A stretch of 64,000 nucleotides of DNA from Porphyra umbilicalis (Eukaryota; Rhodophyta; Bangiophyceae; Bangiales; Bangiaceae). The stretch's first letter is position 1. Each line of letters starts with the position of its first letter. Below are positions 1 through 38,867 of this stretch, in pieces. The DNA lies in NCBI GenBank assembly GCA_002049455.2, contig KV918833.1, forward strand, positions 1-64,000. The letters are read 5' to 3'. The position numbers were made by a program, and so were the translations under genes. Under the pieces are notes generated by a model. That model was not told the DNA's origin and searched no databases. It saw nothing but the letters and a program-made list of their open reading frames with translations.

Positions 1-158
1 GCCCAAGAGGCTTCCGTAACTTGATCCGCGGTTCGGGCCGGGGAAAGGTCGCGGTCGGGCCAGAAATCTGACACCTGCGCGAGTAAGGTCGTTGGGGCAC
101 CTCTTAACTAATTTCGCCTAATCCTTCGGGCCCAACCTTTCCCGGGGCACAATAACCT
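1..158. other. Left flank, no gene seen
   Basis: About 160 bases outside the KDZ transposon. I see no ORF, RNA gene or repeat that I can name. If the transposon insertion is read correctly, this DNA was originally continuous with the sequence after 16386. Confidence 0.5.
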
Positions 159-167
159 GTAGTTCTC
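159..167 (+). repeat. Left target-site duplication of KDZ element
   Basis: GTAGTTCTC occurs here and again, same orientation, at 16378-16386, immediately outside the two inverted termini. A duplication of 8 bases (GTAGTTCT) or 9 fits the target-site duplication length known for KDZ/Zisupton elements. Confidence 0.7.
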
Positions 168-220
168 ATGGAGTAAATGAACGTCCCAGTTCGACGTTGC
201 AGAACTCAAGAGCATCCAAT
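168..220 (+). repeat. Left terminal inverted repeat
   Basis: Pairs with 16324-16377. A 24-base core (185-208 against 16336-16359) is perfectly inverted; the core contains AGTTC and GAACT arms separated by nine bases. The outer 17 bases match imperfectly with one gap, and the inner 12 bases differ at two positions, so the termini have diverged or were never perfect. Confidence 0.75.
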
Positions 221-899
221 GGGGTCGCAGCATCTCAACTCGGGCGCAGGAGCCCTGGCAATACAATTAGGCACGGATTGTAGTTGCCACACAGCCCCGC
301 GGTCAGGCGCTACCGGCTTATCATCCGGGCCGGGGATGAGACAGCTGTTCGGTTCATCAGCCGTCTATCCGTCTGTCATGGCCAGCCATCCGCTCTACGT
401 GCAGCCGTCGTACCGCCGTGGGGAGAACGAGGGGTGCTTTCTTGCTCGGGCACGCACAGCACAGCGCATCTTTCTTCTTGTGCGTGAGTATGAGGCAGAA
501 TCGTGGACCAATGAGGAGCCTCATACATCGCTGCGTGGGCGCCCTGCAGGCCGTCCTGGGCGGGAGTATGAGCCGGCCGCCCAGGCTGTAGCGGCGGCCA
601 TTTTTGCACCAGGCTGATCCGGTGCTTTTTGGCCACACATTCACCCCCATCTGCAGCTCCCTTGGGGGGGCGATATTTTCCCGCGCGCGCGCGCTCGCAC
701 TCCATAACGGTCATCAGCGACGGCTGCCGCCGCCGCCACCTGGGGCACTGGATCGCGCCTCCTTTGGAGGCCCTCGCCGTGGGGCCCCTCCACACCCGCC
801 CGGGGCCTCACTTCAGGGCCCTGGGTGGCCCATTTGTGCGCGTCGGCCAGCGCGCTGTCCGCGCGAGCAGGCGAACCGGCCACGGCCGCGCTGGGTGGT

Positions 900-1970
900 G
901 GGGGACGGGCGAGTTTTGCGCGTGGCGCCCGCCGCGGCCGCCGCCAGCCCGCGGCCACCGCCGCCGCTAGCGCGCCCGGGTGCACCGTCACCGGCGCCGC
1001 AGGGGGGTGCGGCGGCGGGTGGTTTTTTCACGCCGCGCGGCGCGCCACGGCCGCCGCCCGGGGCTGCCGTGCGCCGCGGCCGCCGCCCGGGGCTGCTGCC
1101 GCCGCCTGCGTGCGCGGGCGCACCGGCCCGGGGGCGGTGCGGGGGGGGGGGGGGGGCGGTTTTTGCGCGCCGCGGCAGCCGCCCGCGGCCGCGGCCGCCG
1201 CCCGCGTGCGCGGGCGCACCGGTGCTGGCGTCGATTGGGGGGGGGGGGGGGCGTTCTTGTGCGCCGCGCCGTCCGCTGTGGGGGACTGCCACCGCCGCCC
1301 ACGTGCGCGGGCGCACCGGCCCGGCGGCGGTGCGGGGGGTGGGGGGGGGCTGTTCATTGGCGCCGCGCCGCCCGCCGTGGCCGCCGCCCGGAGCTGGTGC
1401 CGCCGCCCGCGTGGGTGGGTGCACCGGCCCCGGCCGCGCTGGAGGGGTGGGGGCGGTGGGCGGGTTTTGCGAGCCGCCTCCGCCGCCCGTGGCCGTCGTC
1501 CCCGCCCGCGTGAGCGGGTGCACCTGCCCCGGGGACGCTGGGGGGCGGGGGGGCGGGCGGGTTTTTCTCGCCGCGCCGCGCGCCACGGCCGGCGCCGGCG
1601 CTGCTGCTGCAGACCGCGTGCACCGGCGCACCGGCCCCGGCGGCGCTGGAGGAGGCGGCGTTCGGGTGCTGCGCAGCGTGCAACGACCGGACGCCGCTGT
1701 CGCCGGCCGGGGCCGCCGCACGCGGCAGCTGCTCGCGGCTGTCGCACAGTTGGCGGCGGCGCTGAGGGGGGCGGAACGTCTACGGTGGGGCGGGAGGGGG
1801 CGGCCCGCCTTCTTTTGTGCGCTGAGCCGCGCGGTGTGCCCGCCCCTCGCGGCTGTCACCGCCACCTGCGGGCACGAGCGCACCTTCCGCGAAGGCGCTG
1901 GGCGGGGGGGACCGGGTGGTTTTTGGGCGCCACGCCGGGCGCCGTGCGGCGACGCGAGCGCCCGCATCAT
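900..1970 (+). repeat. Left subterminal GC-rich tandem array
   Basis: About ten degenerate units of roughly 100-110 bp. Each begins with a T-run followed by GCGCGCCGCG-like sequence and ends in CGTGCGCGGGCGCACC-like sequence; T-runs lie near 913, 1022, 1160, 1251, 1353, 1463, 1560, 1810 and 1918. The array leaves long overlapping ORFs open on both strands, but these are compositional. Its units resemble the reverse complement of the array at 14650-16160, so it reads as a subterminal repeat of the transposon rather than a gene. Confidence 0.65.
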
Positions 1971-2020
1971 CCCCGGAATCCCAGATGCCGCCGCGGCTTC
2001 CACCGTCCTCCTGGAGTAGC

Positions 2021-2758
2021 CACATCATCTCTGCCGTTTTCACTCCGTAGCCACTGCGGAGGCCTCCCCCGCGCTGCCGCCGCCGTTGCTGCTCACGTGA
2101 CGCCGCCGCGGCCGCCCGCGCATTCCTGTCGGGGTTTTGGTGTTCGGCGTTCTTTCCTATTCCGCTGCAGGCTCGCTATATGCGTGTCACGGGGACGTTT
2201 GGGCGTCGGGAATGAGGCCTCAGGCGCCACAGCCGATTCCGCGGCCGACCATGATGCCACCGCCAGTGCTGCAGGGCACGGTGACGCTGCTTTCAAGGCT
2301 GCGGCCGCAAGAACCGCTACGTTCTCTCTCGCACCCGTTGCCAATCAGTTCTACCGCCCGTTGCCACACCGAGTTCTGTGCAGTGCGACGGCAGCTGCTC
2401 CACCTCTAGATTGTTTTCAACGCCACCTGTCTCCTCGCTGTTGTGTCCCATGAACGCTGTGGCTTGTTATCTACCCCCCATTTCTTTGCAAATAAAAACA
2501 GAGGTGTTCCACACGGGTTACGCAGTCGTGCATATGAGCAGAGGAGCGAGCATACTTGGTAGAAGGTCTTTGTGCATGATCAGCGTACGTCCGTTGGGAG
2601 CCGAGGAAAGGAAATGGATACAAGGCACGCAACTGTTTACTCGCCTACCACTTCCAGCCACGAAGGTGCAACAAGGAAGCGAAGAAACGTTCATTTGACA
2701 GGGTGGAAGATGCACGCAAATACAGCCAAGAAAGACACAAAAGAAAAGCGTGCACAAC
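2021..2758. other. Spacer between left array and transposase gene
   Basis: No convincing gene. AATAAA on the plus strand at 2491-2496 could be a polyadenylation signal for transcription leaving the left array, but no plus-strand protein upstream looks conserved. Confidence 0.3.
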
Positions 2759-5700
2759 CTAGACTTCATCTTCATCCCCCGAGGCCTCCCCACCAGAATA
2801 TACTGCACCCTGCGAGTCCGAGGACTCTTGCCCGAGCAGGTTGGCGCGGACAGCAACAGCCCGATGCTTGCTCGCACCACCATCGCCTTGCACAACAGCT
2901 CCATCGGCAACGATTGGGTCGTCCAGGGCGACGACAACCCCAAGACCCCGAAGAGTGTCACGCAGAACGGCGCGGACAGCAGCTTGTCCAGACACCAATC
3001 CATCGGCGAAGAGTTGTTCGCGAGCCTCATCGTCAGCATCGTCGGCGTGGCGCAGATGAACGCCTCCATCCACACATGGCCCTTCCCGTCTCTGCTCAGC
3101 CGCCCCGCCGTAGACTTGGTCCGCGGCGCGTTGCTCACCCCTCGCAACGTTCTCAGCGACGGCAACACGTGAATCAGCTGCAGGCTGCGGTCGACCAGCA
3201 GCGCCATCCACAGCCCGAGCTGCCGCGAGGCCGGCAACGTGACACCGATCGCCACAAAATCCGGAGACGGCCGCTCGTGCGCTGCGTTGGCCAACCTCCG
3301 AAGCGCAGACAAGAACAGCTTCTTGAACGACGGTTTGTACGGTTGCTTGAACGGGGAAGAGGGCGGCGCATTGACCTGCCGCTGCGGCGGCGGCCTGGCC
3401 GGCAGCCGCGCCGGCGTCGCTGATGCCCGCCTCGAGCGCAACGTGATAAGCGGCCTGCACAGCCGCCAGCCCGGCGGCTCGGCCAAAAACTTGGCCGGCT
3501 GCTTGGCCGGCAGCTAGACCTGCCTCCTGCGCCGCCGAGTCGACAGCTTGCACGATTACCACAGGCAGTGCATCGGCGACAGCCACGTGTACGTTGTGGA
3601 GAGGGGCAACGTGGGCGGCAGCGGCAGGGTCGGCGGCAGGGTCAGGGCGCCCGTCTTGCTGCCCGCCGCCTCCGCGTCGACCATCATCGTCATCGTAGTT
3701 GTCGTCATCGCCACCATCCGCTGCATCTGCAGCAGCACCAGCAGCAGCGGCCTGTCGCATGCCGGCTGCGCACGTGCAGCGCCACCGGTCGCAGTAGTCC
3801 TGTACGTTGGTGTGAAAGAAGGCGCACATCCGCCGGTGGCCGGTCTCTTTGCCCAGCTCCCGCCTCATTTTGACCCGCAAGTTGATTGTCGCCGCCAGGA
3901 GCCGCATCTGGATGATAAAGTGGTCTTGCCGCAGGTGGGCCAGGTGCGTCTTGTAGGCCTTGTTGATGGAGTGACGGCTCTCTGCACAGGCAGTGCTGTG
4001 TCTCACAGAGCGTGACGGGTATGCGTCGGCGTCGAAGATGCGCGAGCACCCGTGCTGGTGCTTGACGTTGTGGGGGCGGTCGAGGCTGCACGCCATAAAA
4101 GACTCGTTCACCAACCACGGCACGCGGCGCGCCGCGTTGCGCGCGAGCTGACATGCCGTGTCAAAATAGACGACCTTAGGAAGCAGGGGGAAGCGCTGCA
4201 CGAGCGACGCCAGCACATGCGATGGCGCCTCGGCCTTGTCGAGGAAGTCATAGCCGATGAGCAGACCGCACGGGCACAAAAAGTTTTCGATGCCCGGCAT
4301 GAATGTCTCCGACGTCAGCCACTTGTGCCGGCAGTCGTCCTCGCCGAGCTCCTTGGCTGCCATGGCGCGGAGCGTCTCCCGGTCTGCGCCTACCTTGGAA
4401 GCCCGAGCGGCGTTGACCGCGTCGGCCTTGCCGTCTATAATGAAAGGGCGAACCGGCTCCAGGTCAGGCCACACCTGGCCGCTGCGCACTTCTTCCGCCT
4501 GGGCGTCGGCACGCGCAAGCGAGTGGGCGGTGCAGGAGAGGCGCCGAGACGCAGGGGGCGGACCTGGCCGGGCGGCCACGTGCGCCGCCATCTTGGTGGG
4601 AGACGCCTCTCTCCACTCGCTCTCAAACTCGGTGGAGGCGGAGGGGGCGCGCCGCCGCCACTCCGACTCCCAGAGCGCGTCGACGTCGCATGCGTAGATC
4701 AGAAGCTCCGCGATGGCCCGCGTCATCAGCGGCTCCGTGTCGGCGCCCATGCCGACGAGGCGGAGAAAGGGCCAAACGATGCCCACCGACTCCACCGCGA
4801 CGGCAAAGCGCCGCCAGTCCTCCACCTCCTGAGCACGAACCATCTTGACCGCCAGCGCCCGAATGCGCACCCGGTCTAGACCAGCAAACGCACCCAGAAC
4901 CGGCTGGCCCAAGAAGGTCGACAGGAATCGTCGCACCGTCCGCCACCGCTCCCGCATTTCGACGGCGGGCAGCCCCGTGCCGACTGCCTCGGCAATGGGC
5001 ACAGCGACGGGGAAGGCACCAATGGGCGCTGCAGCGGGCTGGGCACCGCCGCCACCAGCCAGAGCCACAGGGACGCCGGCCGCAATGGGGGCGGCAAAAG
5101 CCGCTTGGGCGGCCTCGACGTTGACCCCCCGGCCACCAACAATGTCACGAGTCCCGGCCGCCGCGGTGTCGCCGTCGTCGTCGCCATCGACGTGCTCCCC
5201 GTCGTCTGTGATCGGCGGCGGGGCCTGGTCCGTCAACCCAAGGGAGAAGTAAGAGAAGAAGAGAAGACTGGCCGCCCACTGCAACGTCATCGGGCTGGCG
5301 ACAACCACTCCCGGCCCCCGCGGCGCAGGCGTGTCCGCCATGGAAGATGCGAGGTCCCTCAAGGCCGCAAAATTTGTCTTGGACAGCCGGACCGCTTCCA
5401 TCCTCTCCGATGTGAGCGCCTTGCGGACCGCAGCGCGTAGGGACGCCACGGGAAGCAACGAGGCAAAGTTGGTGTCGATCGGTACGACCCGGATGTCCTC
5501 CGTCACCCGATAAAGCGGCTGCGACTGGCTCCGCAGGATTGATAGCACCTCCCCGTCGGCAATGACCGCCCAGTACGGGCGGTCGCCGTCAACCTTGCAT
5601 TTCGTGCATCGGAAGAGGGAGGCGGGCACGATCAGCGTCCGTGCGTAGCGGTGCACCGCGGCGATGACCGTCTGGCGCGCCAGCGCCGAGGAGGCCCCGG

Positions 5701-7375
5701 AGAGGGACTTGGACACTTCCAACAAGAAACATAGCACTGCCGCGGCGGAGGAGAGCGTGCTGTGGCCTGTAAAAACCATCTGCGTGATCACGTCCATGAA
5801 GGTCCGCGTGAAGACCGTCTTGGTGGTGGAGGCAAACAGCGACTCGCTCGCGCCATCGTACGGCACAAGCTGGCCGCACGCGCACGTCCATCGTCGCACG
5901 GTCACCGCCACGCGGCCGCGCAGCGTGTGCAGCGTGGCCCCCGAGTTCTTGACCCCCAAGCCATTGTACGCCGCGCCGCATGTGAAACAGACCGCCTCAC
6001 ACAGCACCTCGGGGAAGTGCGTAGGCTCTTCCGTTGCCCGACCAGCGGAGGCGAGTTGGTCCCACAAAAGGCAGTCGGCCACCTCCCCTGTGCACGGGAG
6101 GAAATTGCGGGAGCTCCGCCACCGGGCCTCGTCCGCGAACGCCGCGTCTGCATCCGCGTCGGGCGACACGGTTGGCGCGGACGCGCGCTCCGCTGGCGCC
6201 TCCGGCAGGTGAACGTCCTTGAAGGGGTCGTCAAAGTTGCCGCCCATCTCGTTGGCGGCGGCGGTTGTGGCGCGCAGCTCCGTGCACCACTCGGTCACGG
6301 CCGCCGCGTGCGGACACCACCAGTGGTCCTTCGCGCAGCTCAACTGCGTGCACGCCGCGCGCATGTGCTGGCGCTTCTTGGACCTGCTCTTGCCCATTCG
6401 GGGGCGGATGACCACCACCGCCCAGGCGCCTCCAGATTGCACGGCAAACACGCCGCGCTTCTTGGCCGTCTTGGTGGCAAAGTGCGCGGTGTAATCGCTC
6501 ACCGTCGCCCCTGCCCCATTGTCGAGCTTGGGGAAGCGGTTCAGGAACTCTGCGGCCGTGTCTAAGCCGGCCGCCGCCGTTAGCGTGACCACGGACGCCT
6601 TAAGCGCACGGGCATGGCAGCAAGACGACGATAAGCCGATGGAAGTGCGCATTTCCACCGACTCGGCGCCGCCGCGGCCGCCGCACGAGCAGAGGAAGAG
6701 CACCTCGCCGCGAACGCGGCCACACCACACGGCGTAACCCCGCTCGCCCTCGGACAACACCACCGCCGCACCGTCGGAAACGCATGCAACGCGGAACAAC
6801 GTGCCCTGCGACCCTATGGGCTGCGGCTCCGACGAGATTGCCAACCCCAGCGCCTCGGCGATGCGCGATGCGATGATGCCGATCAGCCCCAGGACCTCCG
6901 GCCGGTCGTCCACCACGTCCTGCTCGGGCTCGGACAGGTAAGCACCGTCACCGATATCGTGATCCCCCGCCCCCGCCGGGTCGACCCGCTCCGTCGGAGC
7001 GTCTGGGTCGGAAGCGCCAGCGGCAGGGTCTCGAGCACCCCGCCGTTGGCGTCGCGGCCGCCGCTGACCGTCGCCCGCCCTGGCAGTCATACCAGCTGCG
7101 CCCGCCCCGCCCGCCCCTCCTTCCCCGCCCGCCACGCCCGCACTGCCCGCAGCACCCGCTCTTCGCCGACGAGTGCGCTTGGTGGGGCGGGAAGGCGCGT
7201 CGGTCCTGGGGCGGCGAGCCCGGAGATCTTGCGGGAAAAATGCGAGGGCTGCGCGCAAGTCCTCGGCAAGGACGATAGGGACCGCCCGCGCGCACCGGCG
7301 GATGGCCAGTATTGGCAGCGGGAGCGCAACACGGCCGTCCTCAGCGTCCCCCTCCGACCCGCCATCCTCCTCCAT
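2759..7375 (-). CDS. KDZ/Zisupton-type DDE transposase, 1538 aa
   Basis: Predicted transposase of the enclosing element. Three candidate catalytic acids are visible: D607 in YWAVIADGE, preceded by a CTKC zinc pair; D1072 in YFDTACQ, preceded by FLCPCGLLIGYDFL; and E1132 in CAESRHSINKAY. The stretch between D1072 and E1132 includes SLDRPHN and HQHGCS, matching the block order of the Zisupton-like family also annotated in animals as HMG domain-containing protein 3. The N-terminal 400 residues hold two CxC/CxH clusters (CSC...CCHA and CAKDHWWCPHA) that look SWIM-like. The first 120 residues are basic and disordered. The last 330 residues are Ala/Gln-rich and end in the acidic DEDEV. The start ATG at 7375 gives MEEDGGSEG. 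The frame is open throughout without introns. Plus-strand ORFs across 2750-3172 are antisense shadows. The family assignment is strong; activity is inferred. Confidence 0.85.
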   Translation of the reverse strand: MEEDGGSEGDAEDGRVALPLPILAIRRCARAVPIVLAEDLRAALAFFPQDLRARRPRTDAPSRPTKRTRRRRAGAAGSAGVAGGEGGAGGAGAAGMTARAGDGQRRPRRQRRGARDPAAGASDPDAPTERVDPAGAGDHDIGDGAYLSEPEQDVVDDRPEVLGLIGIIASRIAEALGLAISSEPQPIGSQGTLFRVACVSDGAAVVLSEGERGYAVWCGRVRGEVLFLCSCGGRGGAESVEMRTSIGLSSSCCHARALKASVVTLTAAAGLDTAAEFLNRFPKLDNGAGATVSDYTAHFATKTAKKRGVFAVQSGGAWAVVVIRPRMGKSRSKKRQHMRAACTQLSCAKDHWWCPHAAAVTEWCTELRATTAAANEMGGNFDDPFKDVHLPEAPAERASAPTVSPDADADAAFADEARWRSSRNFLPCTGEVADCLLWDQLASAGRATEEPTHFPEVLCEAVCFTCGAAYNGLGVKNSGATLHTLRGRVAVTVRRWTCACGQLVPYDGASESLFASTTKTVFTRTFMDVITQMVFTGHSTLSSAAAVLCFLLEVSKSLSGASSALARQTVIAAVHRYARTLIVPASLFRCTKCKVDGDRPYWAVIADGEVLSILRSQSQPLYRVTEDIRVVPIDTNFASLLPVASLRAAVRKALTSERMEAVRLSKTNFAALRDLASSMADTPAPRGPGVVVASPMTLQWAASLLFFSYFSLGLTDQAPPPITDDGEHVDGDDDGDTAAAGTRDIVGGRGVNVEAAQAAFAAPIAAGVPVALAGGGGAQPAAAPIGAFPVAVPIAEAVGTGLPAVEMRERWRTVRRFLSTFLGQPVLGAFAGLDRVRIRALAVKMVRAQEVEDWRRFAVAVESVGIVWPFLRLVGMGADTEPLMTRAIAELLIYACDVDALWESEWRRRAPSASTEFESEWREASPTKMAAHVAARPGPPPASRRLSCTAHSLARADAQAEEVRSGQVWPDLEPVRPFIIDGKADAVNAARASKVGADRETLRAMAAKELGEDDCRHKWLTSETFMPGIENFLCPCGLLIGYDFLDKAEAPSHVLASLVQRFPLLPKVVYFDTACQLARNAARRVPWLVNESFMACSLDRPHNVKHQHGCSRIFDADAYPSRSVRHSTACAESRHSINKAYKTHLAHLRQDHFIIQMRLLAATINLRVKMRRELGKETGHRRMCAFFHTNVQDYCDRWRCTCAAGMRQAAAAGAAADAADGGDDDNYDDDDGRRGGGGQQDGRPDPAADPAAAAHVAPLHNVHVAVADALPVVIVQAVDSAAQEAGLAAGQAAGQVFGRAAGLAAVQAAYHVALEAGISDAGAAAGQAAAAAAGQCAALFPVQATVQTVVQEAVLVCASEVGQRSARAAVSGFCGDRCHVAGLAAARAVDGAAGRPQPAADSRVAVAENVARGEQRAADQVYGGAAEQRREGPCVDGGVHLRHADDADDEAREQLFADGLVSGQAAVRAVLRDTLRGLGVVVALDDPIVADGAVVQGDGGASKHRAVAVRANLLGQESSDSQGAVYSGGEASGDEDEV

Positions 7376-10300
7376 TTCGCCGCCGCCGCAGAAATCAACA
7401 GCGTCGCCGAGCAGCGGAACGGAGAGAAGCAGCCAGTGTCGAGCCCGCCCGAGGACGCGGCGATGGCCGCACGGTTGAGCGGGTCGACGTCGTGGAGGAG
7501 ACGAGGCAGGCCAGAACCTGCCAGGCGTCCGCCTTGACGTCCCAGTCTCGCGGAGTTAGAGACGATGAGAGCACGTCCACAGCAGGGTCGGCATGACCAC
7601 AGCCGAGGAGGGGGGGGGGAGGGTGGCAGGACAATGGGAGCACGTCGGCGGAAGGGGCGACGTGGAGGCGCTGCAGCGAGCAAGATCGGTGATCGCGAGC
7701 GGCCCGCGGAGGTGTGCGGTCCGCTCGCCCACCGCCACACATCTCCGCGCCACAGCTGACAGAGAGCACTTGACCAAGCATGACAGTGCAATAATTCCGG
7801 ATTGTATCCACCAACACGAATATTAAGTACGAAAACGTCCCCTCTTCCCCTTCCAACTCCCGCTTGCAGTGGAGGCCGTCGTTCTCTCACTGTAACCACA
7901 CCACCCTTCTGGCAGTCTCAGTCGCCACTGCTAAGCATCTGGGCGACCAGGTGTCTGTCTCTGGCGGCATTGGCGCCGTCGCGCTGGGGCATGGACTTCC
8001 GCACAACAGCAACGGGCTGCTGCCGTTCCCGCCCGTCTGCTGCCGCTTGGTGCAACCTCAGCCTGGCTTGACGCCCCAGAGTTCCATGGCGGGTGAGCAC
8101 AGGCGCCCATCGCTGGTAGAGCACCCTCCGACTGTGCCGGCGCTGGCAGTGATTGACTGCTCCCCATACTGACAGCCACCTTCGTGCAGAAATACGCTCG
8201 CAGGCAAGACAGCAGCAGCATTTCCAAAAGTTCACATGTCCCCATAGTTGTCCATACATGACGTACCCCGACCTACACGGCCGCATAACATAGTACTGGA
8301 AGCAGCCCACGCGTCGCTTCGTCCATCTGCAGAGCGCCCCTGTCAGTTCGTATACGCACACATACATGGCATCCAGCTGACTGTGTCATACAAGATGGCG
8401 TTGTATCTGGCACGCATTGTGTACGGTTAACAGCCTGACGACGCCGTCAGACTCTCGCCTGTTAATGGCTGGGGTTTCCTTTTTCGACACTCCCTCCTGA
8501 TGGGGGCTCCATTCCAGCCGGTCCGCCACTGGAACCTCCACCGATTGCCTGAGGACTGTCACCGCGTCCCCAGAGGTGAGAAACGACGAGAGAGCCCAAC
8601 CTGACCACTGCCGATTGCCGTCACCGCCACCGCCTCTCCCTTCCACACACCCGCATGCATCGCACAAGCGCTTGTCATTTATCCACTCCCCTGGCTGCGA
8701 TCCCGCCGCGCTGAAAGTGAGGACGGCAGTCTATGTCATTTTCGGCGGCCATCTTGCCGCCTCCCGAGTGGGTCCCACCTCTGATGCTCCCGCCGCAACG
8801 TCCGAGAACCTCGGGCGGCGGAGGCAGCGGCGCAGCGCCGACATGCCAGTCCATCACTCACACCTCCCCACTCCCACCCATTCTCGTGCAGACCCAGGAG
8901 CGTGCAGGCCGAGCGACCGAGTTGCACAACCGCCAAGCGATGCTCCCCGAGGCTAGTAGAATAGGAGGCAGATGCCCGCGTGGCCAGGAGCGAGTGAAGC
9001 GGGGACTTCAATAGGGAGGAGGGGCGGAGTGCTGTTGGGTGGGGGGCTGGGGCGACAGCAGCAGCAGCTGCGACGACGCGGTGCGGGGATGACAATGCAA
9101 GGGAATGGGAAGTAGGAAACGGCGCGACGCTTGGCGCATCCGTCCAATACATGGCCCTCCATTTTCCGAGATACTTCCCTGTCCTTTCGTGGCCATGAGT
9201 TCCTGATATTTTTTCACTTCACACGTGCTGGCGGCGGATCGCGAGCTGTGTCGGGTCGAAAGGCTTGAGCAGATCCGGCGAGAAACACGGATGCTGAGTC
9301 TTCCATGCGACCTCCCTCTCGAGACTAGTGACAGTGAAAAAAGAGGCCGTATCCTGGCAGCCTGCCGCTTGTAGACTTGTGACCGGCCCGCGCGCGGGCT
9401 GGCCCAACCGCCTCTGCCACCGGAGGTGAATGGAGCACGGCGGAGACCCCATCCCCATTGCACCCCTCCTGCGCAAGATCCACTGCCTGGCAGGGGCACC
9501 CCATCAGCGGTGACCGCCTGGAGTCAACGCGGCCTCAAGATGACCTGTTTTGGTCTGCATGGAGGGGGTAAAAGAGAGGTGCACGTTGCGTGCGTGCGTG
9601 GGTGTTGAGGGACCGGGATTGGGGTAGAGCGCCTCTGCACGAGGCCCATGTCCAAGGAGCACCCCATGACACCCTGGATGCATGGACAGAACGGGACAAG
9701 GGGTGATAACCACCCTCGTCTGGTAGAGAAGTCAAGCAGGCGGTGGCGTACAGCGACAGCAAAGATGGCAATACCATGAGCCTCGCGCCCGGTACACACA
9801 TTTTTGCCACTACTGCCGAAGACCCGCTGCGGCTGGCAGGCAGTCTCTGTGTGTCTCCTCCCCGGGGGGGATCCATCAATGGTCGCTTCCAGCAGCCGGC
9901 GACGCGCCCCCTCTGGAGCCGCCACCACACTGGCTGTTGGCCATGCCGCGGACAGATGGCGGCCTCGCCATTCGTGGATGCCGGTCACGACACCACCAGC
10001 CTGTCACAGAGACCCACCTGGCAGATGGCCCCGCGGGCTGCGCTACAATCACGTGACTCAGACACTGCCACCCGACCCGAACCACTGCTGTGGCAGTCCA
10101 GGGGCGGTTGCCACAAGAACCTTCTCCAGGCCTCCGACGATTGAGTCCCCCTTCACCGGGAGGACAAAGAGGAGCGTGGTGGTCTCCTAGGACGCTGCGG
10201 ACGTGTCCGCGAGGAGAGCTGCTTTTACGGGGGAGGCACGGGTGACAGAGACGGTGACGGCGGTGCGGGCGCTGACGGCGGCGGCCGCGTCGGTGAGAGC

Positions 10301-10851
10301 GTGCGACTGGAGATGGAGGGTACACCGGCCGACTGCGACGGTAGCGGCCGCGGTCAAGGAGTTCGTTGCTCCGGCCCAGGGGGGGGCGAGGGCGTGTAGT
10401 GCGTCACCAAGGCCCCTCTGTTGGGGTGCCGCGGGCTAGTTGTCCGGCGGCGGCGGGTCGGGCGGCGGAGGGCGATGGCGGCCGAGGGTGGGGGTGCACC
10501 CGCTCAATGCCGCGCGGGGGTGGGGTGCGCCACGCGGTCGTGGCGCGCAAATGTGCCATCCGCTAGAAACCCTCTAAAAAAGGATGCCCAGTACAGATTC
10601 ACCTGAGGACAGAGAAAGACAGAGGCAGTGGGTTTTATGCTCCGTCGTAATACAGCTCCCGACCCGCCACGGCTTCATTCCGTTCTGGGTTGTAGGACCA
10701 AGCGAAGGGCTCGTAGACAGTATATACGACACAACTGAAAGTGGAGAAACACCTACACACAACAGATACAAGGTAATAAATGAAGGTACTGCTCCAGAAC
10801 ACGTGAGCAGAAGGACAAATAGAAAGGCACTCTAACAACGATAGAAGAAAG
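7376..10851. other. Interior of KDZ element without clear gene
   Basis: About 3.5 kb between the transposase and the second gene. Many short ORFs occur on both strands, none with recognisable motifs or a consistent codon pattern. It may hold promoters for the transposase or small exons that I cannot identify. Confidence 0.4.
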
Positions 10852-13509
10852 CTAAGCAGGAAGAATCAGATCGCGGTCCCACACGATGAAGCTGCCGATG
10901 GCATCCCCCAGCACTCGAGTCGATACCCCCGGCGGCTCAACAGGGAAGTCTGCCTCGTGCGTGTAGATGCAGCGGGGGTTGAAGACGCCCTCCAACAGCA
11001 CGACCACTAGGTCGTCCGACAATGTTCGGCCGTGCAGTACCTTGCGCGTGGGATGCACAACACCGTGCCCGACTTGTAGACCATCTGCGTCGAGCAGATC
11101 ATGCGGCCCGTCGTCCATGCCTGGCGCAGCTGCCATGGACGAGACAAGAGGCCCCGCAGGGGCTGGGGAAGGAGCCAAAGCTGTGGCAGCAGCAACAGCT
11201 GTGGTAGCAGCGAAAGATGACAGCGCAGCACTGGCCGCCTGGCCGCGCTTCCATGCGGCAGCATGCCGTCCCCGCTTGGTGGGGCTGCCACCCGGCGCTT
11301 CCGGCCCGCCGCGTTTGACCGTCTGCGTGGTAGCTGGCGCCGGGGGAAGCACGCTGAAGACTGTGCCCGTTGTGGCAGCAGCACGGGCGGCAGCACGGGC
11401 TGCCACAACCGACGAGCCGCCGAAGGTACCCCGTACCCCCGTGCCGTTGTTGGCGGCGGAGGTCACGGCGGCGGCGGCACCACCGCCCGCAATCGGCCCC
11501 GGCCGAGGTGCAAGTACGACAGGGTTGTGGGAACCGTGGGTGCTCCGACGAGCTGCAGCCGCCGCGCTCGCGGCCGCCACACCGGGGGCGACCGCCGCCG
11601 CTGACGCCGCCACAGCGTCCGTCGCTCGGCGAGATGCCGCAGCCGCTCGGTTCCTCTTGGCTTGTTGCGCCAGTTGCGCACGGAACAACGCCGTCCGGAT
11701 TGGCCTTCGGACGCGCGACTCTTTGCCCCAGAGCAGGAGCAGAGAAGCAATCGCCTCCTCCTGCGTGCAGCGGTCGCTGTTGGGGATGCTCGACAGGAAG
11801 ACCACGCGGCGACCGAGGCCGCCCGCTACGCCGTTTTCCGCACCTCGCGTCCGCTGCGTCGCGGGCAGGAGACACAGGGGCACGCTGACACCGAGCGGCC
11901 AGCGCCCGCCCACCACCTGCCCGTCCCCGGCCGGGTTGACAATCAGCCGGTGGGACCACCAGCGGGCGAGCCCCTCCTGCATCATCCGCGGGTGCACCCC
12001 AAACTTGGCGGCCAACAGGATGACGATAACCTTGAGGACGTTCCTGACGACCTTGGAGGCGGCGGCCATGCCCATCAGCTCCATGAGGATGTCCTCGATC
12101 TCCTTCTCGGGCATGTAGGCGGGGAGAGGCAGGATCGACTCGACTAGAAACGGCATGCACGTGGCGGTGGGCGCCGGGATGGCGTCGGTCGAGCGCTCTG
12201 TATCCCCCTCGGAGACGTCGGGAGGGGTGTGGGACCGCGACCGACAGACCCTGCGGGCCAACCGCTGCCACTCCACGGGTGGCGGCAGGTCGTCGTCAAA
12301 AGGCGACGTCATGAGCTCGTGCAGCTCCATGTCCTCGTCAGATAGGGCCGGCAGAGGGGCGACGACAGGCGTTGGGTGTGTGGCGGCGCCGACGAGGCGC
12401 GCCGACCGGGAGCCGGGAGCCAGCGTGCCTTTCGACAGCACGTCACCGGATCGCACAAACCCATGGACGTCGGATAGGACCCGCAAAACGTCGGGGTCCG
12501 AGTACTTTCCCTTTCCCGCCAGGGTGAGGAAGCCGACGTTGCCCGCGGCGTCCACTCCCGACGCGTGCACCAACAGCCCCAGACCAAGGTGTGCCTCGGC
12601 CTCCTCGGCGGCCGCCACAAGCGCACCAAGCGCGCGCAGCGCACCAGTGGGGACCGCCGACGCGCCCTTGCCCGTGATCGCCGAGACGTACTTGGCGAGG
12701 CGTCGCATAAGCGGGCTGTTCCGGTCGCTCGCCGCCGCCGCCGCACGCTCAAGCGCCGCCGCCGCCCCAGCAGCAGTGCTAGCCGCGACACTCGCGGAGA
12801 CGATGGCGGCAGTGGCGCTGCTGGCAGCGCCGCTGGTGACAGGAGCACGCACTGCGGCAGTCGACATAGGGAGATGAGGTCGGTCCGCCAGAGGGTGCGT
12901 AAAGCCCGTCGCACCGCCCGCATTAGGGGCGGTACCGGCCGCCGCGGCCAGGAGCGCACCCTCGAGGTTGTGGGCCGTCACTGCGCCGTCAGCAGACGCT
13001 CCGACAGAGGCCGTCGCTGCGGCAGCAGCTGGCGAACCGACGGCAGCCGTCGCGGCGGCAGGAGCCAGTGCACCGACGGCGGCCGTCGTTGCGGCAGCAG
13101 CCGGCGCGCCGACGGCGCCCGGCGCCGCGGCAGCAGCCGGCGCACCGACAGCGACCGTCGCCGAGGAGGTAGCGGGAGACCTGACAGCGGCCGTCGCCGA
13201 AGCAGCGGCCGTCGCCGAAGCAGCAGCCGGTGCAGAGATGTAGGTCGTCACCGACGTGGCAGGCACACCAACAGCCGCCGTTTGCGACGAAGGCGTGTCC
13301 GCCACCTCTTTGTCCGCAGCGGCCGTCGGAAGGGCGGGCGCCGCCGACTCGTCCGTTCCTGCGGCAGTCGCGGAGGAAGCTCGCGCAGCCGCCGTCGACG
13401 AGCCGACCAGAACAACCGGAGCCGGATTGGGCAAGACAAGGACGGCAGGAAAGAAGCTAGGAGTTGTCGCCAGCGTCACGCCACGCACGGCAGCATGGGG
13501 TAACGACAT
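10852..13509 (-). CDS. Large Ala-rich transposon-encoded protein with DUF8039-like C-terminus
   Basis: 885 aa if translation begins at the ATG at 13509 (MSLPHAAVRG); the frame stays open to 13785, but a TATA-like site lies at 13688-13695, so the internal Met is preferred. Residues about 30-230 are Ala/Val/Thr-rich with imperfect 14-residue repeats (VGAPAAAATTA type). A globular region follows (KYVSAITGKG...GFLTLAGKGKYSDPDVLRVLSD). A helical segment (KEIEDILMELMGMAAASKVV) and a long Ala/Arg-rich linker come next. The last 90 residues (GHGVVHPTRKVLHG...VLGDAIGSFIVWDRDLILP) resemble the domain of unknown function found in plant transposon-associated proteins (DUF8039). Its function is unknown. 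Lying inside the transposon, it is likely an accessory transposition or DNA-binding factor. I recognise no gene name. Confidence 0.6.
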   Translation of the reverse strand: MSLPHAAVRGVTLATTPSFFPAVLVLPNPAPVVLVGSSTAAARASSATAAGTDESAAPALPTAAADKEVADTPSSQTAAVGVPATSVTTYISAPAAASATAAASATAAVRSPATSSATVAVGAPAAAAAPGAVGAPAAAATTAAVGALAPAAATAAVGSPAAAAATASVGASADGAVTAHNLEGALLAAAAGTAPNAGGATGFTHPLADRPHLPMSTAAVRAPVTSGAASSATAAIVSASVAASTAAGAAAALERAAAAASDRNSPLMRRLAKYVSAITGKGASAVPTGALRALGALVAAAEEAEAHLGLGLLVHASGVDAAGNVGFLTLAGKGKYSDPDVLRVLSDVHGFVRSGDVLSKGTLAPGSRSARLVGAATHPTPVVAPLPALSDEDMELHELMTSPFDDDLPPPVEWQRLARRVCRSRSHTPPDVSEGDTERSTDAIPAPTATCMPFLVESILPLPAYMPEKEIEDILMELMGMAAASKVVRNVLKVIVILLAAKFGVHPRMMQEGLARWWSHRLIVNPAGDGQVVGGRWPLGVSVPLCLLPATQRTRGAENGVAGGLGRRVVFLSSIPNSDRCTQEEAIASLLLLWGKESRVRRPIRTALFRAQLAQQAKRNRAAAASRRATDAVAASAAAVAPGVAAASAAAAARRSTHGSHNPVVLAPRPGPIAGGGAAAAVTSAANNGTGVRGTFGGSSVVAARAAARAAATTGTVFSVLPPAPATTQTVKRGGPEAPGGSPTKRGRHAAAWKRGQAASAALSSFAATTAVAAATALAPSPAPAGPLVSSMAAAPGMDDGPHDLLDADGLQVGHGVVHPTRKVLHGRTLSDDLVVVLLEGVFNPRCIYTHEADFPVEPPGVSTRVLGDAIGSFIVWDRDLILPA

Positions 13510-13687
13510 CCACCGGGAGGGCGACCGAAGGTGCCATCGTGCGTAGAGCGGGCGAAAAGAGAGAGGGGGAGGGAGAGAAGCAGGTGGGTGAAGAGGTAGT
13601 AGGGGGTGGAAGGAGCAGGTGACGACCAGGTTGTGCAGATGGAGGGGGAGAGAGGGGAGCCAGGCACCACAGAACACGACCCGCCAG

Positions 13688-13695
13688 CTATATAG
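13688..13695 (-). promoter_or_regulatory. Candidate TATA box for the second KDZ-element gene
   Basis: CTATATAG, an isolated AT-rich octamer in GC-rich DNA, about 180 bases upstream of the ATG at 13509 on the minus strand. It supports starting the protein at that ATG rather than at 13785. Only a motif match. Confidence 0.35.
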
Positions 13696-14649
13696 GAGCC
13701 TGCTGGTCGCCGGCGGCACCGGAATGAGGTGCCCTGGCACCCACGCCGTAGCATCGACGCGTGCAGGCCACGGTGTGGCTCCCACCAGGTTCCGCCGGCA
13801 CGCCCGCCCTCAGCTACTGCTGCTTGGGAGAATGGTATGGCGCCACGGGCGGCGGCGCCAAAAAAGGGCGGCCCACCCACCGTCAAGCCGCGCCTTCGCA
13901 ACCAGCAACGCACCCAAAAAAGCGGCGACCATGCGAACACCAGCTACGGCGAGGTGCATCCTAGCTTAGCCCGCCGTTCGCCTCACCGGCGCCGTGGCGG
14001 ACGCGGCAAAAACGCGGCACGTGCCTCTAGTCAATGGCCAGAGACCAAGGCACCCATCCCGCGCCGTTAAGCGGGTAGGCAGAGGACTGGCGCCCGTCGG
14101 CCGTGCGTCAGCCTCCAGATAACCATTGTCCGCGGCGGCGGGCGGCGGCTGGGTCGAGAGCGGTGACGGCGGGGTGGGCAGACGCCGGCAGTGCCGGTCG
14201 CGGGGCCGGGGAGTGGCGGTGAAGGTGGGGGGAGGGCCAAAACGCAGCCACCAAGAGCCCGACGAAGAGCCCCCCAAGCCCGACTGGAGCCGGCGGCGAC
14301 GGGAACGTGACGACGGCAGGGTTGGAAGACGCTGGCAGTGCCAGTCGAGGGGCCGTGCGGTGGCGGTGACGGTGGGTGGAGGACCAAGACGCAGCCACCA
14401 AGCGCCCGCCGCGGGTCGCTCAACAGGGACTATGCGCGGCGTCCACGCACTGCGCCAGCGAGGGCGGCGGCGGCTAGGGCCGCGCGCGGCGCAAACGACC
14501 GTCCGGCGCCCCCTCGAACCAAGCGCCCGCTCACCACAACAACAACCCGCGCGCGGGCCGGCGCAAAAAGACACGCCACTCAGTGGCCATGCGGAGACCC
14601 CCATACGCGATTGCGGGAGACGGCACCGGCGGTAGCGACGGCGCAGCCA

Positions 14650-16160
14650 GCTACTGTAAAAAGCCCGCCCCCCCTGGCAGCCCCTCAGGGGCCCCCAGAC
14701 GCACCTGCGGGCGGCGCCGGCAGTGGCTGCGTGGAGCGGCGCGCGCGAAACAGTGACGACCGAGCAGCCCCGTGGGGCCCCCCAAATGCGTCCGCGGGCG
14801 GTGCGGGCCGCGGCGCGCGGCGGCGACGGGCTAAAAAAACAGCCCCAGCAACCCCCCAGGGGCCCCCAAACTCGCCCGCGGGCGGCGGTGGCTGCGGTGC
14901 ATAGCGGCTCACGCAAAACAATGCCGCTCGAGCAGCCCCACAGAAGCCCCCAAAACGCGCCCGCGAGCTGCGCGGGCGGCGGCGCGCTGCGGCGCGCGCA
15001 AAAAAATGCCGCACCAGCAGCCCCCCAGATGCGCCCGCGGGTGGCGGGGGCGGCGGTGCGCAGCGGCGCGCGCAAAAAAAAAAACCGCCCCAGCAGCCAC
15101 CCAGGGGCCCCCCAAACGCGCCCGCGGGCGGCGGCGGCGGCGGCGCGCAGCGGCGCGCGGAAAAAAGGGCGTTCCAGGAGCCCCCCAGGGGCGCCCCCCA
15201 AACGTGCCCGCGGGCGGTGGCGGCGGCGGCGCGCTGCGGCGCGCGCAAAAAAATGCCGCACCAGCAGCCTCCCAGATGCGCCCGCGGGTGGTGGGGGCGG
15301 CGGTGCGCAGCGGCGCGCGCAAAAAAAAAAAACCGCCCCAGCAGCCACCCAGGGGCCCCCCAAACGCGCCCGCGGGCGGCGGCGGCGGCGGCGCGCAGCG
15401 GCGCACGGAAAAAAACGCCGCCCCAGGAGCCCCCCAGGGGTGCCCCCCGAACGTGCCCACGGGCGGTGGCGGCGGCGGCGCGCTGCGGCGCGCGGAAAAA
15501 AGGGCGTTCCAGGAGCCCCCCAGGGGTGCCCCCCAAACGTGCCCGCGGGCGGTGGCGGCGGCGGCGCGCTGCGGCGCGCGCAAAAAAATGCCGCACCAGC
15601 AGCCCCCCAGATGCGCCCGCGGGTGGCGGGGGCGGCGGCGCGCAGCGGCGCACGGAAAAAAACGCCGCCCCAGGAGCCCCCCAGGGGTGCCCCCCAAACG
15701 TGCCCACGGGCGGTGGCGGCGGCGGCGCGCTGCGGCGCGCGGAAAAAAGGGCGTTCCAGGAGCCCCCGAGGGGCGCCCCCCAAACGTGCCCGCGGGCGGT
15801 GGCGGCGGCGGCGCGCTGCGGCGCGCGCAAAAAAATGCCGCACCAGCAGCCTCCCAGATGCGCCCGCGGGTGGTGGGGGCGGCGGTGCGCAGCGGCGCGC
15901 GCAAAAAAAAAACCGCCCCAGCAGCCACCCAGTGGCTCCCCAAACGCGCCCGCGGGCGGCGGCGGCGGCGGCGCGCAGCGGCGCGCGGAAAAAAGGGCGT
16001 TCCAGGAGCCCCCCAGGGGCGCCCCCCAAACGTGCCCGTGGGCGGCGGCGGCGGCGGCGCGCAGCGGCGCGCGGAAAAAACTGCCGCCCCAGGAGCCGCA
16101 GAGGGGCCCCCCAGAGGGCGGCGGGGGCGGTGGCGCGCGGCGGCCGCGGCCAAAATATGC
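14650..16160 (-). repeat. Right subterminal GC-rich tandem array
   Basis: About 18 units of roughly 75-90 bp. Each contains an A-run of 5-11 bases followed by a GCCGC/GGGCGTTCC-like stretch, then CAGCAGCC or CAGGAGCC, GGGGCCCCCCAAACG, GCCCGCGGGCGG and a GCGCGC-rich end. A-runs recur near 14836, 14999, 15075, 15160, 15247, 15320, 15411, 15495, 15587, 15657, 15745, 15829, 15903, 15988 and 16076. At least two unit types alternate, distinguished by the block after the A-run. Long ORFs across it on both strands are compositional. Its reverse complement resembles the array at 900-1970. Confidence 0.7.
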
Positions 16161-16323
16161 CTGAACGGATGCGGACGAGCCATCCGGCCCAGGCGGAAAC
16201 AGCAGATCGTCCGCCTCGTCCAGTAACTCTCATGCACTTGCTGAGCCTGTACTTCGCGTCCCGAGCGCGGTGCATTGCGGCTGCTCAGGTGCCCCGTCCG
16301 CTGCCGATGCACGCGCGCATGTG

Positions 16324-16377
16324 ATTGGATGCGCCTGAGTTCTGCAACGTCGAACTGGGCGTCTCAGTTACACCCTC
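16324..16377 (-). repeat. Right terminal inverted repeat of KDZ element
   Basis: Reverse complement of 168-220, with a 24-base perfect core at 16336-16359. It is immediately followed by the second copy of GTAGTTCTC. Confidence 0.75.
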
Positions 16378-16386
16378 GTAGTTCTC
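16378..16386 (+). repeat. Right target-site duplication of KDZ element
   Basis: GTAGTTCTC, same orientation as 159-167. The next bases contain a short tandem GGGGTCAACC repeat (about 16395-16420). Confidence 0.7.
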
Positions 16387-16904
16387 CGGTAAACTGGGGT
16401 CAACCGGGGTCAACCCCGGTGGTTATCGAATCCGTCCCAGAGGCGGCGGTGGCTTGACGAGGCACCGTCTTTCCCGCGCCCGAGCGCATCCGTACGACCC
16501 ACCGCCGTCGACACGCCCTGTCCCTCGCGCACGACCCACCGCCTCGGCCCCCTGCCATCCAGACCCGTCCGCACACCCCCTCCCGCTCCCCCGCCGCCAC
16601 CCGCAGCCGTGACGCGCGCCGACGGCGGGCCCGACAGAGCCCAGCCGACGCACGACGCGCGCCCCACGCCAGCAGCGCCTCGAGGGACGCCGCCCGCGTC
16701 TCCACCGCCCGCCCGGCCAAGCGTCGCAATGGGCGCCCCCACCAGCCCGCCTGTGCCGCCCTTGCCCCTCGACGGCGCCACCGACACCAACGACGGCGCC
16801 GCGCCGCGCCGCCCCCACCCCCGCGCGCGCGCGCGTAGCGCCGCGCTCCACCCACCCGCCGCCGCCGGCGACGCGCCCGCCGACCCCGCGGGCGGGCGGG
16901 CGGC

Positions 16905-33469: not shown

Positions 33470-34708
33470 ATGCCGGGGACGCCCCCCCCCCCACCGCTTG
33501 CCGGCGGGGACCCCGCAGCGCTTGACCCGGCCGCACTGCGCGTGCGCCTCGAAGAGACCGAGGCGCGCCTGTCGCAGACGCACGCCGAGTTGGCGACCGC
33601 CCGGCTTGCCATTGCCGGGCACGATGCCGCCCAAGGCGCCGCCACAGCCGCGGCGGCTGCGCTCCACGACGGAGCGGGCGCAGCTGGCGGCCGCCGTACG
33701 GGCGGCGCAGCTCCTAGTGGGGCAAACGGGGTCACCCCCGCCGCCCCCGCTACCGGCATCACGGGCGGCGCCGGGGGCATCATCCCGGCGCCAACGGACG
33801 GCGGCACGACCGACCGCCCCTACGTCCTCCCGGCCCCCGTCAATGGCGGCGGCCAGGACTACGAGCGCATCGGCGACGGCGAGGGCTCCGACAGCCCCGC
33901 CGACTGGCTTGCGCGCACCAACTCCGTCCACGCCGGCCGTGGCGCCACGCCGCGCCACTACCCGTACGTCGACGACGCGGCCGTCTACAACGACGGCTTC
34001 GACACCATCAAGGTGCCCGCCGCCGACGAATGGCTCCAGGCGTTCGCCGTCCCGCGCTCCATCCTCCGCGGCGATGGCATGCCCGTCCCCTTTGCGCCCG
34101 ACGACAACGTCCACTCGGCCACCTTCCCCAACGGCGGGCGAGACGAGGTCGAGGCCAGGCACTGGTACTGCATCTTGGCGTGGCTCCAGCACACCCACAA
34201 CGAGGCCTTGGACGGGCACCACGCCGTCGACCGCACGCCCGACGAGGACAAGCAGCTCGTCGAGTTCCTCCTTTGCGCCCTCAACCGCACCTACGCCATC
34301 GGCGTCTTGAGGTACGACTACCTCGCCTTGCGCCAGTCCGAGCCCGCCTTGGCGGAGGCGTTCGCCCACAGCGACGCTGTCCCGCGCAACACCCTCCGAG
34401 GTGACGGCGCCCGCCGGTACCTCTCCCGCGTCGTACGGCAAGAGACCCTCGCCTCCGCCAAGATTGGAGCCGCGGAGCGCGGCTTCTCGTACGGCTCCCG
34501 CACGACCGGTCGAGCCGGCGGCAGCACTGCCCCGGCAGGCGGCGGCCCGTCACGGGCCGGCGCTCGCAGGGGCGGCGGCAGCAGCAGCGGTCGAGGCGGG
34601 GGCGGGTCCGGCCACACCGGCGGTGGCGGACGAGGTGGCGGCGGCGGCGGCGGCGGCGGCCGCGGCCGCGGAGGGGGCCGAGGTGGGCGCGGCGGCGGCC
34701 GCGCCTAA
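33470..34708 (+). CDS. Gag-like protein of the YR retrotransposon
   Basis: 412 aa from ATG 33470 (MPGTPPPPPLAG). It has a short Pro-rich start, a helical coiled-coil-like segment (ALRVRLEETEARLSQTHAEL), a Gly/Ala linker, and a globular core (about residues 160-330) containing EVEARHWYCILAWLQHTHN and LLCALNRTYAIGVLRYDYL. The last 80 residues are RGG-rich, suitable for nucleic acid binding. No zinc knuckle. The core position and size fit gag proteins of DIRS-like elements, but the sequence itself is not diagnostic. The 3' end overlaps the RT frame by about 300 bases, with RT in the -1 frame. Confidence 0.75.
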   Translation: MPGTPPPPPLAGGDPAALDPAALRVRLEETEARLSQTHAELATARLAIAGHDAAQGAATAAAAALHDGAGAAGGRRTGGAAPSGANGVTPAAPATGITGGAGGIIPAPTDGGTTDRPYVLPAPVNGGGQDYERIGDGEGSDSPADWLARTNSVHAGRGATPRHYPYVDDAAVYNDGFDTIKVPAADEWLQAFAVPRSILRGDGMPVPFAPDDNVHSATFPNGGRDEVEARHWYCILAWLQHTHNEALDGHHAVDRTPDEDKQLVEFLLCALNRTYAIGVLRYDYLALRQSEPALAEAFAHSDAVPRNTLRGDGARRYLSRVVRQETLASAKIGAAERGFSYGSRTTGRAGGSTAPAGGGPSRAGARRGGGSSSGRGGGGSGHTGGGGRGGGGGGGGGRGRGGGRGGRGGGRA

Positions 34709-36780: not shown

Positions 36781-37805
36781 TCGGCCCCACGGCCGCCGAC
36801 ACCCACGACCCGGCAGCGGTGACGGCGCTCCTGCGCCGCGGCTATCGGCCCAACACCGAGGCGTCGTACATGTCTAAGTACCGGGCATTTGCCCGCTACT
36901 GCAACGAGCACGGACGCGCGGCGCTCCCAGCCGACCCATCAACTGTCGTTGGATACGTGCTACACGAGCAGCACCGCGGGGCACTCGCACCGCCGTCGCT
37001 CGAGAAGTACATCTCGGCCGTGGCGTCCATCCATCGCATAGCTGCGTACGAGGACCCCACCAAAAGCTTCCTGGTGCGTCTGGCGATCTACGGCTATCGC
37101 TCCTGGGCGCTCGAGGAGCGCGGTGGCGAGCTCGCGCTGCAACGCATGCCGCTACCCGCCGCCTTTATCCTCGGGGTCTGCGACGTGGGCCTGTCCACCC
37201 CCGACGCGCTCTTGCGCGTCCAGTGCGCGGGCCTGGTACTGGGGTTCCTCCTCTTCAACCGTCCCGGCGCCGCCGCCTGTATGCGGCACAAGGACGTGGC
37301 ATTCACGCCGAACGGCATGGAGCTCCAGATCGTCGACTTCAAGCTCGCCCTGCGCACTGGCCGCGAGAGGCACGCGTTCACCGTGCCTATCGACTGCAAC
37401 CCCGACGTGCGCGACAGGCCCGCCGCACTGGTGCGGCTGGTCTGGGAGCAGCACCGCGCTGCCGGCCGGGGCACAGCGGCGTTGCTGTTTGCCGACCCCC
37501 ACCTGCCACCGGAGGTCCGCCTGTTCAACCTCGCCGCCCGTGTCACCAACGTGTGGTTGCGCCGCCTTCTCGGACTGGTGCCTGTGCCTGTGACACTGGG
37601 CGGCATCTACCAAGGCCACTCATTGCGGAGCGGGGCGGCCACCGCGGCGTACTCCATTGGCGTCCCTCTTCCCATGGTGGCCGAGATGCTGGGCCACTCA
37701 TCGATGGAGGTCACCATGCGCTCCTACGTGAAGTCGCGGTTCCGGGCTACCCCGGAGGCCCGGGAGGTGATGGGGAGGTTCCTCCCCTCACATTTCCGAC
37801 TATGA
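36735..37805 (+). CDS. Tyrosine recombinase of the YR retrotransposon
   Basis: 356 aa from ATG 36735 (MRNDGERWDHLF), overlapping the RT ORF by 46 bases in another frame. The N-terminal SAM-like domain is GYRPNTEASYMSKYRAFARYC. Catalytic residues are visible in order: Arg in LLFNRPGAAACMRHKDV, HxxR in YQGHSLRSGAAT, His in EMLGHSSMEVT, and nucleophilic Tyr in MRSYVKSRF. This enzyme would integrate a circular cDNA. The stop TGA at 37803-37805 abuts repeat B1. Confidence 0.9.
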   Translation: MRNDGERWDHLFTRLVGPTAADTHDPAAVTALLRRGYRPNTEASYMSKYRAFARYCNEHGRAALPADPSTVVGYVLHEQHRGALAPPSLEKYISAVASIHRIAAYEDPTKSFLVRLAIYGYRSWALEERGGELALQRMPLPAAFILGVCDVGLSTPDALLRVQCAGLVLGFLLFNRPGAAACMRHKDVAFTPNGMELQIVDFKLALRTGRERHAFTVPIDCNPDVRDRPAALVRLVWEQHRAAGRGTAALLFADPHLPPEVRLFNLAARVTNVWLRRLLGLVPVPVTLGGIYQGHSLRSGAATAAYSIGVPLPMVAEMLGHSSMEVTMRSYVKSRFRATPEAREVMGRFLPSHFRL

Positions 37806-37838: not shown

Positions 37839-38436
37839 TGTATTTAACGTAGTTTTCGGTGTAACTGGCATGGCTGATTATTTGTCAGCCGGCCGGACGC
37901 GGGCAACTGGCCAGGCGGAGGCGGCTGACGGAGGGGGGCGGCGCGACGCACGGTCGGGGGACCGAGCGGACGCGCGAGACCGAGCGTGGGCGGTGCGTGG
38001 CCGCCAATGGGGGCGGCACGCGACGGCGACGCTCGGGCGGGCGTGGCGCCTCTTTGGGCACCACCGCCCGCGACCGCGGGCAACCACGGTTCTGACACGC
38101 AGCCGCGGCGACGGGCGGCGACGGGCGCGCGGCAATGACGCCCGCTCGCCGCGGCGCCTGCTGGCGGGCGCATCGGGCGCCACGCCCGCGCGCGCGCGCG
38201 CGCGTCGCGCGCCGCGCGCGCGGCGCAGCGCGCGCGCCGGCACCGGCCCCCCTCCCCCAACGGGCGCCCGGGGCGTGCTCCGGGCGCACGCGCAGAGACC
38301 CCTTGCGGCGGCGGGGTGCGGCTTGCCCTGCCGGCGGCGGCCGCGCCAGCGGCCGCAGCCGACTACTTGATGCCGCGCGGCGGCGACCACCCGCCGGCCT
38401 CTACCGGCCGGCAGCGTCCTCGTCTTCTCGCGGCCC
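37839..38436 (+). repeat. Split direct repeat A2
   Basis: 598-bp copy of A1. Directly follows B1, so B1/A2 carries the same junction a circularised element would have. The sequence between A2 and B2 (38437-38834) is unique to the right end and has no ORF I can support. Confidence 0.95.
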
Positions 38437-38834: not shown

Positions 38835-38867
38835 TGGCGCACTCCTTCTCGGCTACCTCACTGGTTA
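38835..38867 (+). repeat. Split direct repeat B2 (right end of retrotransposon)
   Basis: 33-bp copy of B1 ending CACTGGTTA. The next base, 38868, is the first base of the GGG codon that continues the interrupted RBR gene. Confidence 0.95.

Follow-up and report, generated by a model that had tools for sequence, protein, structure and literature searches.

Introduction

Is the DNA at the start of contig KV918833.1 of the red alga Porphyra umbilicalis a complete KDZ transposon, and does the second gene that it carries take part in transposition? Few DNA transposases are as large as those of the KDZ superfamily, which have been little studied; their core is RNase H-like, with catalytic acids of the DDE type. 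The window, i.e., the whole stretch of DNA analyzed in this study, is the first 64 kb of this contig (C73), and the genome comprises 83.8 Mb in 665 contigs. Ten matches to PF00504 show that the genome encodes light-harvesting proteins; among 14 control genomes, this family is matched in Synechococcus only. For two of the proteins, the best PDB matches are chains of 9vfj, 7y5e, 9kz9, 9kc5, and others named ACPI or CAC, among them red-algal and cryptophyte proteins, in keeping with an alga of the red lineage. We conclude, with a probability of about 0.9, that the window contains a DNA transposon of 16,211 bp (167-16377) that belongs to the KDZ superfamily, is complete, and is probably autonomous. 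The element is a member of a known superfamily, and its conserved second gene is the part of interest. A complete copy with two open genes and several alignable relatives is clean material for the study of the cutting acids, the end requirements, and the possible involvement of the second protein.

Target duplications of 8 bp are reported for Zisupton and a Dileera element, as are additional genes for KDZ elements of fungi (PMC12730594). Giant transposons of Ectocarpus include KDZ elements that reach 30.3 kb and contain extra genes and nested insertions; in Chlamydomonas, a KDZ element of 31.7 kb is active and has moved (PMC12477816). Kyakuja-3_cRei has inserted into a Chlamydomonas gene (PMC10828217), and Zisupton and Kyakuja elements occur in Chlamydomonas and its relatives (PMC8226300). 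In a nematode, Zisupton genes are multi-exon, and inverted repeats but not duplications were detected (PMC9297572). No title on KDZ elements in red algae was found in our literature search, which is not proof of their absence from print.

Ends of the element and target site duplication

The ends of the element were fixed by copies in the same genome, with which its termini are shared (Table 1). Homologs of the left end start between -3 and +4 bases from window base 167. Seven homologs of the right end stop exactly at 16377, and that of C107 stops at 16370. The inverted termini proposed by a first-pass annotation of the window were recovered: the two 54-bp termini, which include the 24-base core that it had pointed out, are identical at 44 of 54 positions, and 200,000 random pairs of 54-mers from the window peak at 39.

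Seven other elements were found with both ends. The 8-bp duplication is perfect in five of them (C122, C304, C32, C272, and C80) and matches at 7/8 bases in C171; C107 has no matching duplication (2/9 bases). The same terminal bases thus recur in independent insertions, with ends and duplications in seven elements, the window's included. In the six other duplicated elements, the eight bases are followed by one unduplicated base (C in five, T in one) and then by ATGGAG-like sequence. Because the base before the ATGGAG-like start is unduplicated in these six, base 167 was assigned to the element. The 9-base duplication of the first-pass annotation was accordingly rejected, the ninth matching base at the window being due to chance, and with the correction to 8 bp the two termini align without a gap. 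The annotation was right that the element is complete; its limits (159-16386) had to be moved inward to 167-16377. An 8-bp target site duplication, as reported for Zisupton and Dileera, and terminal inverted repeats are among the features expected of KDZ elements, and the element has both.

Table 1. Window positions of the KDZ element, its genes, and its flanks (aa, amino acids; TRF, Tandem Repeats Finder).
Feature	Position	Strand	Remark
Left host flank, end of older dispersed repeat A	1-158	+	Repeat A runs to ~165, inside the duplication; 15 other places match from 130 and stop at 161-176
Left target site duplication, GTAGTTCT, 8 bp	159-166	+	8/8 vs 16378-16385; length set by six other elements
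Left terminal inverted repeat, starts CATGGAG	167-220	+	44/54 vs reverse complement of 16324-16377
GC-rich left subterminal tandem array containing runs of T	933-1648	+	TRF periods 99-138
KDZ-type transposase, 1538 aa, uninterrupted frame	2759-7375	-	
Second gene, 885 aa when read from its ATG; lies upstream of transposase; conserved core and C-terminal domain	10852-13509 (ATG at 13509)	-	
GC-rich right subterminal tandem array containing runs of A	14777-16144	+	TRF period 86, higher-order 247 and 335
Right terminal inverted repeat, ends ACACCCTC	16324-16377	-	Right ends of other copies
Right target site duplication, GTAGTTCT, 8 bp	16378-16385	+	
Right host flank, repeat B, CCGGTAAACTGGGGTCAACC...	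16386-16445	+	Homologs in C197 (from 16379), C393 (from 16381), and C305 (from 16390)

It is very improbable that the ends come from different insertions, with a chance assembly of sequences in between. The missing duplication of C107 and several partial copies in which only one end was found point in that direction. However, both ends are present in the C122 copy, which spans 16,151 bp, is flanked by an 8/8 duplication, and shows an unchanged arrangement of end, transposase, second gene, array, and end; this already refutes such an origin for the family.

The contig start lies nearby, and just 158 bases of left flank precede the element. Repeat A matches window 1-165 at 98% in L044 and window 1-167 at 92% in L045. 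Two of the three homologs of repeat B read through TAGTTCTCC or GTTCTCC. On either side, the flank homologs extend as far as the duplication or run into it, as would be expected if the element had inserted where two older repeats meet. The empty site that the first-pass annotation had proposed to look for was not seen in the same assembly; homologs of the left and right flanks lie on different contigs, and a search with the joined flanks was not made. Repeat A (window 1-165; L007, L008, L044, and L045) spans several hundred bases and ends with CCTGTAGTTC (CCTGTAGGTC in L045). Judged by eye, it contains internal inverted stretches. C619 and C284 (L010/L011) share the same right end and the same flank; this pair and the pair C295/C303 suggest that some contigs of the assembly are duplicates or alleles of each other.

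Transposase

The 1538-aa frame is intact, as claimed by the first-pass annotation. Its motifs comprise a SWIM-like CxC..CxH pattern at residues 229-254, WWCPH at residue 352, H1102/H1108/C1110, and CxC at residues 1200-1202. At least 35 matches were found in its own genome, where the best 30 of 11,071 candidates were scored.

The KDZ assignment was evaluated through these relatives. A search with PF18758 (KDZ) found at least 28 places in the genome, 19 of them above the cut-off (two only together with neighboring stretches), and no match in 14 control genomes. One of these paralogs, L022, exceeds the PF18758 cut-off with 28.5 bits and is 28% identical to the window transposase over 735 columns (E 3e-54). 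By tblastn, all ten PF18758 loci compared (of at least 28) match the window transposase, at 24.7-28.2% identity over 433-784 columns. Among three closer relatives, only L049 (46% identical) matches PF18758 (E 0.0017; 18.5 bits, cut-off 26.6); L047 and L048 do not.

In an alignment of 15 sequences, 43 positions agree with the window transposase in at least 14 sequences. A second alignment comprised 12 sequences, nine of which have a PF18758 match with an E of at most 1; eight of these had been chosen for matching, and the ninth is L049. In this alignment, D607 (in D[GA][EQ]) is conserved in at least 90% of sequences, and D1072 (in [FY]D.AC) and E1132 (in AE..HS) are invariant. These three residues are the candidate catalytic triad. 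Homology to paralogs above the PF18758 cut-off supports the membership of the window transposase in KDZ; the assignment made by the first-pass annotation thus stands by way of relatives and not through a Pfam match of its own.

A search of the PDB with the protein returned only an irrelevant match (E 0.44), and a search with its profile returned none. No relatives were found in the viral contigs and prokaryote genomes searched. The ratio of nonsynonymous to synonymous substitution rates (dN/dS) of the transposase is 0.16 against the C122 copy (1405 codons) and 0.23 against the C107 copy (1505 codons). The transposase is under purifying selection.

Second gene and its pairing with the transposase

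The open frame of the second gene has 977 codons, with the ATG at residue 93. It can be aligned from residue 259 to the end with C122 and from residue 99 with C107. dN/dS is 0.38 and 0.29 against C122 (417 and 303 codons) and 0.41 against C107 (870 codons); over residues 2-95, nearly all of which lie ahead of the ATG, it is 0.77 (91 codons). The 885-aa gene that the first-pass annotation had called is a genuine gene under purifying selection. Searches of Pfam, NCBIfam, and PDB returned nothing for it, and in Pfam neither the gene nor three pieces of it gave a match at E 10. Its C-terminal domain may resemble plant CACTA accessory proteins (DUF8039-like), which is a lead only. The N-terminal Ala-rich part contains a 36-bp tandem repeat (window 12973-13215).

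It is unlikely that the element is a dead relic and that its long frames have stayed open merely because the DNA is GC-rich. Spurious long frames are common in the window, which has 64 of at least 250 aa at 68% GC. However, both genes have a third-position excess and, against two copies, a dN/dS well below 1; no stop occurs in 1538 and 885 codons, and the duplication is 8/8.

In the genome, the core of the second gene has at least 24 matches and the C-terminal domain at least 19; the 43 rows correspond to at least 27 loci. Among the matches listed, to which the counts in this section refer, 16 of 27 second-gene loci share a contig with a transposase match. In these 16, the nearest transposase is always on the same strand. 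The second gene is upstream of it at 15 loci, and at 13, among them the window element, the distance is 6 kb or less. The outliers are C107 (13 kb, across its insertion), C199 (17 kb), and C331 (34 kb, order reversed).

Transposase matches were listed on 26 contigs, 20 at 41% identity or more and six at 35-39%. Judged by eye, a second-gene match is present on 16 of the former 20 and on none of the latter six. None of the 28 PF18758 places has a second gene nearby (by eye), and the only shared contigs are C20 and C145, with more than 70 kb between the two. Transposases partnered by a second gene are about 43% or more identical to that of the window; the PF18758 places are only 25-28% identical. 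The second gene therefore appears to be a partner of transposases closely related to that of the window, and not of every KDZ element in the genome. The new lineage suggested by the first-pass annotation would hold only in this limited sense.

Related copies and subterminal arrays

The first-pass annotation had proposed a search for other copies, and copies with common ends were found. The close transposase copies are those of C107 (83% identical, four stops), C101 (86%, one stop), C122 (78%, no stop), and C17 (90%, partial, one stop). The second gene is broken in C122 (frame change and stop) and in C107 (three stops). Among the close copies C73, C101, C107, and C122, both frames are stop-free in C73 only. 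The 8.8-kb insertion of C107 (L027-L029, ~10.7-19.5 kb) has long frames that, by eye, resemble gag and pol of retrotransposons.

Arrays are present near both ends, as the first-pass annotation had reported. They are inverted relative to each other, all 31 blastn matches being on the minus strand. Repeated matches also occur in two of the copies, near the right end of C122 and at left and right alike in C107. The arrays may serve as protein-binding sites.

The same genome contains a 1.43-kb non-autonomous family (C272, C304, and C171; L032, L033, and L040) with 8-bp duplications (7/8 in L040). C32 and C80 (L034 and L039) are longer relatives of this family, rearranged or with insertions. The family resembles the KDZ element over ~54-62 bases at its start and ~41-60 bases at its end. 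In contrast, it has inverted repeats of its own of ~365-380 bp and otherwise no blastn match to the KDZ element. The family was probably mobilized by a related transposase.

Discussion

Several observations weigh against a complete, probably autonomous KDZ transposon. The transposase itself has no match in Pfam at E 1, PF18758 included. Two structure predictions, made from the window sequence only and without an alignment, gave a mean predicted local distance difference test (pLDDT) score of 38.3 and 41.2 and were discarded; because both scores were low, the catalytic fold was inferred from sequence. Among the matches listed, 11 of 27 second-gene loci have no transposase match on their contig, and C17, C236, C2, and C203, with transposases at 41% or more, have no second-gene match. 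C295 and C303 have nearly equal match scores and may be two assemblies of one locus. The closest complete copies are divergent (synonymous divergence of the transposase, 0.42 and 0.83), and because they differ so strongly, no recent burst is seen. In addition to its missing duplication, C107 has an altered right end and the 8.8-kb insertion.

In the mechanism that we propose, the transposase would act as an RNase H-like DDE nuclease, likely with D607, D1072, and E1132, and would bind the 54-bp termini, with zinc-binding motifs in its N-terminal half. It would excise the element and join it to the target with an 8-bp stagger, and repair of the gaps would give the 8-bp duplication. The second protein would most likely be a DNA-binding helper of the transposase, perhaps acting on the mirrored arrays near the ends.

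A stronger version of this proposal, which we put forward tentatively and as possible, is a KDZ lineage that needs two proteins, in which the 885-aa protein would be an obligatory second subunit and possibly read the mirrored subterminal arrays. The pairing, which is kept across divergent elements and, among the matches listed, is missing near the PF18758 places, is compatible with it. A transposition helper of this kind was not found described for KDZ in the literature searched.

It is rather doubtful that the 885-aa gene is instead a passenger, i.e., a captured host gene or an anti-silencing factor outside the transposition machinery. Fungal KDZ elements bear accessory genes such as TET/JBP dioxygenases (PMC12730594). 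With a dN/dS of 0.29-0.41, the second gene changes more rapidly than the transposase (0.16-0.23), and it has no recognized domain; in C122, the transposase is still open and the second gene is broken; and 4 of the 20 related transposase contigs lack a second-gene match among the matches listed. On the other hand, the position and strand of the gene are kept next to transposases that are only ~43-56% identical to that of the window, which argues for an old partnership and not for a recent capture.

Among known systems, the element is like Zisupton and Dileera in its inverted termini and in its 8-bp duplications (for the latter, PMC12730594). It differs from them in that no TET/JBP gene was recognized in it and that its second gene is without a recognized family. 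For TET/JBP dioxygenases, six element stretches were compared with Pfam, with shorter frames left out, and none was found; the sole match was Rv0078B (E 0.57, under the cut-off). The very large transposase, the cysteine clusters, and the KDZ core are probably further similarities to Zisupton and Dileera. With the giant elements of Ectocarpus and Chlamydomonas (KDZ-1_Ec32, the 31.7-kb element, and Kyakuja-3_cRei), it shares an algal host and a length above 10 kb, and with those of Ectocarpus it shares additional genes (PMC12477816). Compared by their descriptions, it differs from the giant algal elements in being about half their maximum size and in having one accessory gene at a fixed place. 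Size, which the first-pass annotation had offered as a distinguishing feature, does not set it apart, since KDZ elements of 30.3 and 31.7 kb have been reported in algae (PMC12477816).

Other features in the window

Outside the element, a long frame at window 34404-37805 (+) has weak tyrosine-recombinase matches (Phage_integrase, 26.2 bits, cut-off 27.1; SAM-like, 20.4 bits, cut-off 22.3) and is perhaps a DIRS- or Crypton-like element. Possible host genes are found at window 38319-39731 (+), with an IBR half-RING domain, and at window 44990-46747 (+), with a PHD-like zinc-binding domain (zf-HC5HC2H).

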